Assembly: GCF_900199215.1 (NCBI RefSeq)
Contig: NZ_FZQA01000001.1
Coordinates: 434,001 to 498,000, forward strand
DNA from: Amphiplicatus metriothermophilus
GTDB taxonomy: Bacteria; Pseudomonadota; Alphaproteobacteria; Caulobacterales; Parvularculaceae
Direction: 5' to 3'
DNA: 64,000 nucleotides
Positions 17,319 to 23,263 of the stretch are shown piece after piece. The notes beneath the pieces were generated by a model, which was not told where the DNA came from, searched no databases, and saw only the letters and a program-made list of their open reading frames with translations. Numbering within the stretch: the first letter of the stretch is position 1; each line of letters opens with the position of its first letter. Position numbers and translations under genes: made by a program.

Positions 17319-18773
17319 ATGCCCGACGCCGGCTACAGGCCCGATCCCGCCTTTCTCGCCCTCGCGCCCTCGCTCGAGGCGGGCGCGCCGTTCTGGGACG
17401 CAGTAGCAGCGGCGGAATTTCCTAAGCACGTCCTGCGCTACCGCAATCAGCGCTGGGCGGAGAAGATCGGGCTCGGCGATCTGTCCGAGGCCGAATGGAT
17501 CGACCATTTCGGCCGCTTCCGTCCGCTCCCCGACAATATCCCGCGCCCGCTCGCCTTGCGCTATCACGGCCACCAGTTCCGGGTCTACAATCCGGACATC
17601 GGCGACGGGCGCGGATTTCTGTTCGCCCAGCTGCGCGACGATCAGGGCCGGCTGCTCGATCTCGGCACGAAGGGGTCCGGACAGACGCCCTATTCGCGGT
17701 TCGGCGACGGCCGGCTGACGCTCAAGGGCGGCGTGCGCGAGCTCCTCGCGACCGAGATGCTCGAGGCGCTCGGCGTTTACACGTCCAAGACCTTCAGCCT
17801 CATCGAGACCGGCGAGGCGCTCGAGCGCCAGGACGAGCCCTCCCCGACGCGATCGAGCGTGCTCGTGCGCCTTTCCCATTCCCATGTGCGCTTCGGGACC
17901 TTTCAGCGCCTCGCCTTCGAGCGCGACGCCGACGCGATCGGCGCGCTCGTCGATTATTGCGTGCGGGCGTTCGATCCCGACCTTTCCGGCCTCGGCGCGA
18001 AAGAGAAGACGGCCGCCTTTTACGGCCGCGTCGTGCGGCGCACGGCGCGTCTCGTCGCGGAGTGGCTGGCGGCCGGATTCGTCCACGGTGTTCTCAACAC
18101 CGACAACATGAACGTCGCCGGCGAAAGCTTCGACTACGGACCGTGGCGCTTCGCGCCGGTCGCCGACCCCGGCTTCACGGCGGCTTACTTCGACCAGACA
18201 GGGCTTTACGCTTTCGGCCGGCAGACGGAGGCCGCCGCGTGGAATCTGTCGCGGTTCGGCGGAACCCTCGCGCCCGTCGCCGATCTCGACGCGCTCAACG
18301 AGGCCCTGAGCGGCTTCACGCAAGCCCACGAAAACGCGCTCGCCGACGCCTTTTTTCGCCGGCTCGGCCTTGAAAGATCGGGTACGGACGATATCGAGCT
18401 CGTCGTCGCGCTGCTGCGATGGATGGAGACGACGCGCGTTCCCTATGAGCGGGTCTTCTTCGACTGGTTCTGCGGGCGCGCGAGCGAAGGCCGGGCGGAG
18501 ACGAGCCCGCTCGCGCCGCGCTATCGCGAAGAGGCGTTCGCCGAGACGCGCGCGCTTCTTCTCGCGGCCGAGCCCGACCGGCCGGAACGGCTCGCCCATC
18601 CCTATTTCGCCCGGCCCGAGCCCTGCACGATGCTGATCGACGAGGTCGAAGCGATCTGGGCGCCCATCGCCGAAAACGACGACTGGTCGGCGCTCCACGC
18701 CAAGCTCGACGCGATCGCCGAGATGCGCCGCGCCTACGGCTTCGACGCCTCAGACTATGCGGGGCGCGTCTGA
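17319..18773 (+). CDS. selO: Protein adenylyltransferase SelO (YdiU)
   Basis: Pseudokinase-fold enzyme that transfers AMP to proteins, involved in redox stress; 484 residues. Conserved blocks are LRYHGHQFRVYNPDIGDGRG, LDLGTKGSGQTPYSRFGDGR, LKGGVRELLATEML, VRLSHSHVRFGTFQ, and the metal-binding segment HGVLNTDNMNVAGE. The C terminus ends without the selenocysteine tail seen in eukaryotes. It is divergent from nfeD. Monocistronic as far as I can see. Confidence 0.95.
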   Translation: MPDAGYRPDPAFLALAPSLEAGAPFWDAVAAAEFPKHVLRYRNQRWAEKIGLGDLSEAEWIDHFGRFRPLPDNIPRPLALRYHGHQFRVYNPDIGDGRGFLFAQLRDDQGRLLDLGTKGSGQTPYSRFGDGRLTLKGGVRELLATEMLEALGVYTSKTFSLIETGEALERQDEPSPTRSSVLVRLSHSHVRFGTFQRLAFERDADAIGALVDYCVRAFDPDLSGLGAKEKTAAFYGRVVRRTARLVAEWLAAGFVHGVLNTDNMNVAGESFDYGPWRFAPVADPGFTAAYFDQTGLYAFGRQTEAAAWNLSRFGGTLAPVADLDALNEALSGFTQAHENALADAFFRRLGLERSGTDDIELVVALLRWMETTRVPYERVFFDWFCGRASEGRAETSPLAPRYREEAFAETRALLLAAEPDRPERLAHPYFARPEPCTMLIDEVEAIWAPIAENDDWSALHAKLDAIAEMRRAYGFDASDYAGRV

Positions 18774-21510: not shown

Positions 21511-22794
21511 ATGACCTCCGAAGTCGTATTGATGAACCGCCAGGCGGTGGCGATGGCCGCGGACAGCGCCGTCACCATCTCAGGCCACCAGTACGTCAAG
21601 ACCTATCAGTCGGTGGACAAGCTGTTCCCGCTGGTCGAGGGCCAGCCGGTGGCGGTGATGATCTATAACAACGCCGAGATCATGTCGACGCCGTGGGAGA
21701 CGGTCATCTCGCTCTACCGCGAGCAGGCGCGCGGCCGGCCCCTCGATACGCTCGAAGCCTACGCCGAGGATTTCATGGCGTTCCTGTCGGGCAACCCCGA
21801 TCTTTTTCCGCCAGATCATCAGGATACGGAGTTCTTCAAGCACGTCGCCGTGGTCTTCACCGTCGTCGCGGAAGATTTCGACTATCAGGTCAGAAAATTC
21901 TCCGAGTCGAACGCCGGCCGGCTGCGCGATCATCTCTCCTCGATCTTCGAGTTCGTGGTGAACGAACTCTATGCGGACTACCAGCGCTATCCGGATGACT
22001 CTCCGCGTGCAGATCTTGCCTGTTTTCCTAGCGGCATGGCCGAGCAGGTGCGCCGGCGCTATCGCGGCGAGATCGAGCAGCTCGTCGACAGCCTGATCGC
22101 GACCTTGCGCGGCGACTATCAAGGCCTTTCAGTCTCCGAGGGAACCCGCGAGCGCCTGCGCGAGATCGCGGTGCTGTCGGTCGTCAAGGACGCCTTTTTC
22201 GAGCATTACACCGGCGTCGTCTTCGCCGGCTTCGGCGCGCGCGACAAGTTTCCCGCCATGCGCTCGTACCTCACGTCAAGCGTCGTTCTGGGCATCCTCA
22301 AGCGCAAGCAGGACCGCGCGGCCGACATGACGTCCGACGGCGGGCCGGTGGTGCAGCCCTTCGCGCAGGACCGGATGATCCGCACCTTCCTGACCGGCAT
22401 GGACCAGTATCTGCGCATGTATCTGTTCGGCGAGACGCTGAAGCTGTCGATGCATCTCGTCACCGACGTGATCGGCCGCACGCCGGGCCTGTCCGACGCG
22501 CAGCGTCAGGCGCTGTTCCGCGACTACAGCGAAAACAATCTCGGCTATGCGCTCAGAGAGTTCTTCAAGTCGATCGACCATTATCAGTATGCAGCGCATA
22601 CTCGGCCGATCTATCGCGCCATCGCCTCGCTCCCCAAACGCGAGCTGGGCGAGACCGCGGCCTCGCTCATCAAGCTCAATTCCTTCCAGCAGAAGGTCAT
22701 GCACGCGATCGAAACGGTCGGCGGGCCGATCGACGTCGCCGTCATCACGCGCAACGGCGGGCTGGAGATGAAGCGCGACAAGCCGGACCTTTAG
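21511..22794 (+). CDS. Proteasome/HslV-like Ntn-hydrolase fold protein, large variant
   Basis: 427 residues from the ATG at 21511 (AGAGGGG upstream). The N terminus reads MTSEVVLMNRQAVAMAADSA. Removing Met exposes Thr, and the Asp of AAD is then residue 17, exactly the T1/D17 spacing of proteasome beta and HslV. Lys of VDKLFPL follows at residue 36, against Lys33 in HslV. VAVMIYNNAEIMSTPWETVISLYREQ matches the next strand and helix of HslV. TGVVFAGFGARDKFP (near residue 238) matches the Gly-rich strand, and GGPIDVAVITRNGG near the C terminus resembles the last strand. Two helical insertions (about residues 75-230 and 265-400) make it more than twice HslV size. The fold assignment is my inference from these motifs. 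I do not know a named family. The next gene is 10 bp downstream. Confidence 0.7.
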   Translation: MTSEVVLMNRQAVAMAADSAVTISGHQYVKTYQSVDKLFPLVEGQPVAVMIYNNAEIMSTPWETVISLYREQARGRPLDTLEAYAEDFMAFLSGNPDLFPPDHQDTEFFKHVAVVFTVVAEDFDYQVRKFSESNAGRLRDHLSSIFEFVVNELYADYQRYPDDSPRADLACFPSGMAEQVRRRYRGEIEQLVDSLIATLRGDYQGLSVSEGTRERLREIAVLSVVKDAFFEHYTGVVFAGFGARDKFPAMRSYLTSSVVLGILKRKQDRAADMTSDGGPVVQPFAQDRMIRTFLTGMDQYLRMYLFGETLKLSMHLVTDVIGRTPGLSDAQRQALFRDYSENNLGYALREFFKSIDHYQYAAHTRPIYRAIASLPKRELGETAASLIKLNSFQQKVMHAIETVGGPIDVAVITRNGGLEMKRDKPDL

Positions 22795-22804
22795 GGAGTC
22801 GATC

Positions 22805-23263
22805 ATGGTCGAGCGGCTGAAGCAGATCTGGAGCGGCTTCGAGGCGAAGACGACGCGCCGGCTGACGGGCCGGGGCGTGGACAATATCGTCGTCCCGCAC
22901 CGGCAGGACTGGCGCGCGGAGGAAGCCGCGAAGCTCGCCGAAGGCCTCCGGCCGCCGGCCGAGGCCGCCTTCGCCGCGCTCAAGGCGCGCCTCGCCGCGG
23001 CCGAGCAGCGCGCCGAGCGCAAGCGCCGGCGCAAGGGCCGGCCCGCGCCGGCCGAATTCGCCGCCGCCCCGCCGCCGCCCCTGTCGGCCGAAGCCGCCGA
23101 CGAAGGCGCGCCCGAAGCGGCGCGGGATCTCATCCGGGGCCTGCGCGCCACCGAGGCGCGGCTGCGCCGGCGCGAGTCCGACTATGTGGCGGTGATGTCT
23201 GGCGAGGCCGGGCGCGCGCTTGAGAGCCTTAAAAAGCGGAAGAAGTTCCTGGGGCTGTTCTGA
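22805..23263 (+). CDS. Basic coiled-coil protein, partner of the Ntn-hydrolase-like gene
   Basis: 152 residues, no recognised family. The N-terminal part is MVERLKQIWSGFEAKTTRRL. An Ala/Arg/Glu-rich coiled coil follows (residues about 38-78), then a proline-rich linker (AAAPPPPLS), a second charged helix, and a C terminus of KKRKKFLGLF. GGGAG lies 8 bases before the ATG and the gap to the upstream gene is 10 bp, so the two are one operon. A role as adaptor or regulator of the upstream protein is inference from context only. Confidence 0.7.
   Translation: MVERLKQIWSGFEAKTTRRLTGRGVDNIVVPHRQDWRAEEAAKLAEGLRPPAEAAFAALKARLAAAEQRAERKRRRKGRPAPAEFAAAPPPPLSAEAADEGAPEAARDLIRGLRATEARLRRRESDYVAVMSGEAGRALESLKKRKKFLGLF

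Follow-up and report, generated by a model that had tools for sequence, protein, structure and literature searches.

Fuchs, Alva and Lupas described 22 new proteasome-like families in 2021 (PMC8665760), among them PMI ("Proteasome homolog with Multiple Insertions"), which is without known function. In that description, only PMI-3 and PMI-4 have an insertion after H1/H2 as well as one between H3/H4, and PMI-4 is a large, broadly distributed group that includes phages (PMC8665760). The presence of insertions at both inter-subunit sites was taken as an argument against a canonical ring in PMI, and the same work states that no genomic context or co-occurrence hinted at function (PMC8665760). Our literature search found no functional study of PMI. 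The papers found to cite that work dealt with a connectase application, with ESCRT and, in a review, with the proteasome; in the review, the matches were confined to the reference list.

In this study, we analysed a 64,000-nt stretch of the Amphiplicatus metriothermophilus genome (hereafter the window), which carries a hydrolase gene very likely of this kind followed by a partner gene, with the following features.

21511..22794, + strand: predicted proteasome-like threonine Ntn hydrolase, very likely PMI-type, 427 aa (ORF, alignment, predicted structure and fold search)
21514..21516, + strand: codon of Thr2, the predicted N-terminal nucleophile once Met is removed
21562..21564, + strand: codon of Asp18, counterpart of proteasome Asp17
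21619..21621, + strand: codon of Lys37, counterpart of proteasome Lys33
21799..22200, + strand: helical insertion 1, about residues 97–230, between H1/H2 and S5 at the 'pore loop' site (predicted structure)
22405..22629, + strand: helical insertion 2, about residues 299–373, between H3 and H4 (predicted structure)
22717..22734, + strand: VGGPID motif ahead of the penultimate strand, like Anbu SVGxPID (hhalign to Anbu, low significance)
22805..23263, + strand: gene of the 152-aa partner, which is predicted to be helical, starting 10 bp past the hydrolase stop (conserved, under purifying selection)
23231..23260, + strand: basic-hydrophobic tail KKRKKFLGLF of the partner (C-terminal pattern shared by 53 partners)

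The N-terminus of the hydrolase reads MTSEVVLMNRQAVAMAADSAVT. Thr2, Asp18 and Lys37 were each invariant in all 40 divergent homologues aligned, and the homologues start at exactly this point, which bears out the M-T start with T1/D17/Lys spacing pointed out in the preliminary description. After Met removal these residues are T1, D17 and K36; the lysine lies three residues beyond proteasome Lys33 because the loop between is longer. All 47 close homologues (69–86% identity), as well as the divergent ones (about 25–35%), start at the same residue with M-T or V/L-T, some of them with GTG or TTG, and the second codon is therefore always Thr. An in-frame TTG 84 bp upstream was ruled out as the hydrolase start, since close and divergent homologues all begin exactly at this residue. 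The other invariant positions among the 40 sequences were M1, N9, A16, L41, M50, G235, V237, G240–G242, A285, G296, V403–G405 and A410. Chance does not explain this invariance, as the insertions vary freely across the very same sequences. At the candidate counterpart of the oxyanion residue Gly47 of the proteasome, likely position 53, the homologues have N, G, D, S or Q, residues that favour a turn, without an invariant Gly. The auxiliary proteasome residues Ser129, Asp166 and Ser169 are presumably not kept, A285 and V403 lying near those places. At the level of sequence, catalysis by the predicted hydrolase is well supported, with an N-terminal Thr nucleophile that predicted Met removal would free, as in proteasome-like Ntn hydrolases.

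An AlphaFold2 model built from the 40-sequence alignment (mean pLDDT 88.2, pTM 0.83) points to a proteasome-beta-like alpha-beta-beta-alpha fold. It agrees with the Ntn fold and the two large helical insertions that had been proposed from the sequence. When the model was searched against the PDB, the top matches were proteasome beta subunits and Anbu, and the 50 matches listed were all proteasome subunits or Anbu (probability 0.97–1.00). The best match had an E value of 1.9e-4 (probability 1.00) and the Anbu structure 5nyg one of 7.8e-4. Global TM-scores were low (0.2–0.3 by query, about 0.5 by target) because the insertions make up half of the protein. The modelled secondary structure follows the order of proteasome beta with two helical insertions added (residues ~96–232 and ~299–373): S1–S2, further strands, H1 (62–73), H2 (81–94), the first inserted helices (101–133, 138–158, 176–202 and 210–225), S5 (234–240), two long strands, a short strand, H3 (288–295), the second inserted helices (299–322 and 329–373), H4 (376–397) and two last strands, the final one at 417–423. 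Insertion 1 is poorly conserved among the homologues. A BFVD fold search was topped by a weak match (E 2e-3) to a 'Proteasome beta type-2 subunit' from a phage. Comparison by hhalign with HslV or Anbu profiles, which were thin, was not significant (E 0.02–0.06, probability 1–2%); its register placed AADSAVT on HslV GDGQVS, which is correct for HslV, and TVGGPID on Anbu SVGLPID.

The preliminary description had recognised no name for this family, and in this it was mistaken. The modelled architecture, with insertions after H1/H2 and between H3/H4 and none between S3/S4, fits PMI-4 or PMI-3 (PMC8665760), and the phage family phrog_5990 also matches. The homologues are spread over Proteobacteria, Streptococcus and Enterococcus elements and a Porphyromonas phage, a PMI-4-like distribution. 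Since the dual insertions are described only for PMI-3 and PMI-4, of which PMI-4 is the broad group with phages, the hydrolase very likely belongs to PMI-4, as judged against the published architecture and distribution.

The 152-aa ORF downstream, ending KKRKKFLGLF, is conserved, and the two-gene operon proposed earlier therefore stands, as does the observation that no AAA+ unfoldase is adjacent: no AAA+ or HslU gene was found among the surrounding genes. In Parvularculaceae, 57 of the 60 genomes have the hydrolase in single copy, though G119, which is counted among these, has a distant copy only. The partner ORF lies directly downstream in all 47 close loci, one of them clipped by a contig end, so that the expected co-occurrence of the two genes was borne out. 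One of these partners (L069, genome G050) was overlooked by the search and recognised by eye. Across 150 genomes of the order, the partner was found only with the close enzyme, apart from one fragmented genome in which it lies at the end of a contig; the near-complete genomes G109 and G119, which lack the close enzyme, lack the partner too. Over 14 pairs, pairwise dN/dS stood near 0.03 in the enzyme and near 0.08 in the partner, indicating that both genes are expressed and under constraint. In Parvularculaceae, the pair belongs to the core genome as a single-copy operon under strong purifying selection. Upstream in the same orientation lies SelO, a predicted protein AMPylase (window 17319–18773), which is kept in 33 of 48 loci. 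Mobile-clade-like homologues occur at other sites in two Parvularculaceae genomes (G104:C15:28285-29523 and G119:C1:390437-391618), the second of which has this copy only and no core operon.

Counted over 51 non-redundant loci, a downstream ORF was present in 44, against about 52% expected from Markov-resampled sequence; this rough test took in ORFs 40 aa or longer whose start lay between −20 and +60 nt of the enzyme's stop. The sequence searches made revealed no homology of partner bodies between lineages: the body is wholly different, while its position is constant and a basic-hydrophobic tail persists in the chromosomal clade. Because the body changes while position and tail persist, the pattern fits an adaptor, tether or accessory subunit, but does not establish a gate. 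A single-sequence model of the partner, made with no alignment, was helical and gave no confident global fold (pLDDT 68, pTM 0.28); a coiled coil is plausible on this model.

In 53 partners from two bacterial families, otherwise unlike, the C-terminal tail follows [KR][KR][KR]-[FRIL]-[LF]-G-[ILV]-F, save for single deviations within the basic stretch. Across the 21 genomes searched, a 24-nt pattern encoding [KR][KR]FLGxF-stop matched no more than once per genome. Of its seven matches, four were partner genes already found by protein search, one (L116) was read as a partner, one (G144) lies at a contig end in a partner reading frame and one is an unrelated transglycosylase-like ORF. More distant chromosomal lineages end in RKKGFLRRLFGAR, KRRRGLFRRMLGLR, KKKRRGFFGLFRRK or SWLKRLFSRK, and the short mobile-clade partners lack the tail, the kind of which thus varies between lineages. 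We take these tails to be similar to basic-hydrophobic segments that target proteins to membranes, the MinD C-terminus for example. Their helical hydrophobic moment was not unusual against controls (20th to 93rd percentile, with a MinD-like reference peptide at the 47th), and for this reason the idea of a membrane tether draws on composition and resemblance. From its sequence, the tail may be a membrane tether or a docking segment.

Taking these results together, we consider it probable that the first gene encodes an active PMI-type threonine Ntn amidohydrolase that needs no unfoldase, and the second an accessory protein dedicated to it, which either places the enzyme in the cell or brings substrate to it. 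As predicted from sequence and fold, the enzyme would be synthesised without a propeptide, Met removal would expose Thr1, the catalytic centre would comprise Thr1, Asp17 and the conserved Lys on a proteasome-beta-like sandwich, and the two helical insertions would project from this core. The insertions may prevent assembly into a canonical double-ring barrel and screen or mould the entrance to the active site, and would thereby favour specific ATP-independent cleavage, or transfer, over bulk degradation. The helical partner, presumably co-translated, would act as adaptor or tether, and its tail (KKRKKFLGLF, or variants such as RKKGFLRRLFGAR) may attach it to the inner membrane or dock on the enzyme. 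We infer the role of the partner, the substrate, the oligomeric state and any membrane attachment, as we do the proposal that the insertions or the partner replace the ATPase as gate or adaptor of a stand-alone system. In Parvularculaceae the pair would serve a housekeeping function; a sister clade travels on phages, satellites and plasmids with shorter partners.

That sister clade raises another reading, in which the family is primarily a mobile-element 'moron', for example an anti-phage or superinfection-exclusion protease with the partner as inhibitor or sensor, and the Parvularculaceae operon has been domesticated. Homologues were found on Streptococcus satellites, on Providencia, Stenotrophomonas and Porphyromonas phages, on 40 IMG/VR contigs and on plasmids, and these elements carry close to half of the non-redundant homologues. 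Such copies neighbour holin/lysozyme genes, run counter to the late genes around them, or occupy the 3′ end of Streptococcus satellites, and two plasmid lineages in rhizobia adjoin multi-ubiquitin/ThiF gene sets. Mobile-clade enzymes carry a C-terminal ...IKRKHYF...N extension that is missing in the window protein, and their downstream ORF is small (mostly 45–80 aa) and divergent in sequence. On Streptococcus satellite phages (L070:9001-10380) the homologue and a 55-aa ORF are the element's last genes, the usual place of accessory cargo. Two plasmid copies, from Rhizobium leguminosarum (L134:9001-10187) and a member of Hyphomicrobiales (L133:9001-10270), are split into two reading frames each and may be broken.

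In an unrooted maximum-likelihood tree, the phage and plasmid sequences form one group with scattered chromosomal copies (SH-aLRT 98), and the long-partner chromosomal forms need 2 changes against 14.1 when shuffled. As the tree is unrooted, it fits domestication and mobilisation equally, and the transfer that the 'moron' reading assumes has no direction on it. Elsewhere, copies are sporadic, with 16 among 385 alphaproteobacterial genomes and 8 among 299 from the phylum. No clear enrichment of defence islands was seen near these chromosomal copies, only scattered single matches among many housekeeping genes, and neither hydrolase nor partner matched the PADLOC 2.0.0 models. The Parvularculaceae copy, moreover, is core, syntenic and slow-evolving, unlike defence genes. 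We therefore regard the 'moron' reading as possible, though on the unlikely side.

On four rhizobial plasmids, a mobile-clade gene lies 1.2–1.6 kb from a multi-ubiquitin gene with an adjoining ThiF-family E1.

L127:5733-10437, rhizobial plasmid: homologue locus beside a multi-ubiquitin gene
L128:5267-11423, rhizobial plasmid: homologue locus beside a multi-ubiquitin gene
L132:9001-15210, rhizobial plasmid: homologue locus beside a multi-ubiquitin gene
L134:9001-15203, rhizobial plasmid: homologue locus beside a multi-ubiquitin gene

These neighbourhoods include DUF6527 and, in Rhizobium, a Clp-type protease; they belong to two tree lineages with different gene orders. Multi_ubiq was found in 11 of 372 genomes of the class. 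The plasmid association could reflect function, or merely common accessory islands. In Parvularculaceae, a link between hydrolase and multi-ubiquitin was unsupported (hydrolase in 57/60 genomes, Multi_ubiq in 5/60, no correlation). A. metriothermophilus itself encodes a multi-ubiquitin protein with three Multi_ubiq repeats on another contig, outside the window (G000:C6:2814-3383). A 2006 survey of prokaryotic ubiquitin reports E1/E2/Ub clusters of this kind (PMC1779556), and the part of its text available holds no mention of a proteasome-like peptidase in them. In the broadest version of our proposal, PMI hydrolases would provide the catalysis in a widespread proteolytic system of two components that needs no unfoldase, and their fast-evolving partner would set location or target. 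The system would be tethered to the membrane with a housekeeping role in Parvularculaceae, carried by mobile elements in phages and satellites, and coupled to multi-ubiquitin/E1 on rhizobial plasmids, where it would amount to a bacterial ubiquitin-plus-proteasome-like pathway. We advance this only as a speculation, and a doubtful one.

It is also unlikely, if slightly less so, that the tail is an activator-like C-terminal docking motif, as in HslU or PAN/Rpt HbYX, that binds between hydrolase subunits and opens a gate, the enzyme forming a ring. The exact ending of 53 partners from two families at G-x-F speaks for it, but close relatives end KKLFWIF, KKGFRLF, KLFGIL or GGIFGKLFGSKK and some partners carry residues beyond the motif, so that an exact carboxy-terminus is not required, and a strict HslU/HbYX-type motif was accordingly down-weighted. 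The insertions at both inter-subunit sites speak against a canonical ring, by the argument made for PMI (PMC8665760), and no ATPase is encoded nearby.

Connectase offers a further model: like it, the enzyme would be a protein ligase or transpeptidase specific for a certain sequence, and would recognise, or act on, the conserved segment of the partner. Connectase is proteasome-like and ATPase-free, with helical insertions that control specificity (PMC8665760), and here too a short conserved segment sits on an otherwise variable partner body. However, the insertion of connectase lies between S3 and S4 and those of the hydrolase after H2 and between H3 and H4, and the tail differs in kind among lineages and is missing from short mobile partners; we judge this reading improbable. 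That the protein is no Ntn hydrolase at all, but a helical one in which the likeness of the first strands to HslV is accidental, would agree with the lack of any match in Pfam and NCBIfam (PF00227 included) and of anything related in a sequence-only PDB search, but is very improbable in view of the proteasome/Anbu fold match and the invariant catalytic residues.

The enzyme family itself was already catalogued in 2021, as PMI, without function or partner; what looks new here is that it has a partner gene with a conserved tail, that it divides into a core chromosomal operon and a mobile clade, and that it occurs in these plasmid contexts. Context and function were lacking for the 22 families listed (PMC8665760), among the largest of which is PMI-4, and a conserved partner, together with a core version in the culturable Marinicaulis flavus and Aquisalinus flavus and a mobile version, provides a first handle on function. 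The pair bears on how proteasome-type enzymes work without an ATPase, and the plasmid neighbourhoods with multi-ubiquitin and E1, if functional, would be relevant to the origin of ubiquitin-dependent proteolysis.

Among known systems, phrog_5990 is the same family as the hydrolase by HMM (E 5.4e-73 over residues 1–418), but is annotated merely as 'unknown function' in phages. HslV (ClpQ) shares the M-T start, the T1/D17/Lys spacing and the proteasome beta fold; however, it is about 175 aa long, is detected by PF00227 and has the HslU ATPase as its partner, whereas the hydrolase has 427 aa and is missed by PF00227. The HslV of A. metriothermophilus is encoded at a separate locus of the same contig. 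Anbu is alike in the fold match, the similar (S/T)VGxPID segment by the last strands and the lack of an obvious ATPase, but it has no large internal insertions, of which the hydrolase has two, and the hydrolase lacks its C-terminal H5 coiled coil, the model ending at strand 417–423. Connectase, likewise proteasome-like and ATPase-free with a helical insertion, differs in being a monomeric archaeal ligase whose two-helix insertion sits between S3 and S4 and in which H1/H2 are absent, whereas the modelled hydrolase keeps H1 and H2 and has no S3/S4 insertion. The closest likeness is to PMI: a proteasome-like core, a Thr/Asp/Lys triad, no propeptide, insertions after H1/H2 and between H3/H4, a broad distribution in bacteria including phages, and no AAA+ partner. 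Where PMI was described without context (PMC8665760), the present locus has a downstream partner gene and belongs to a core chromosomal clade set beside a mobile one.
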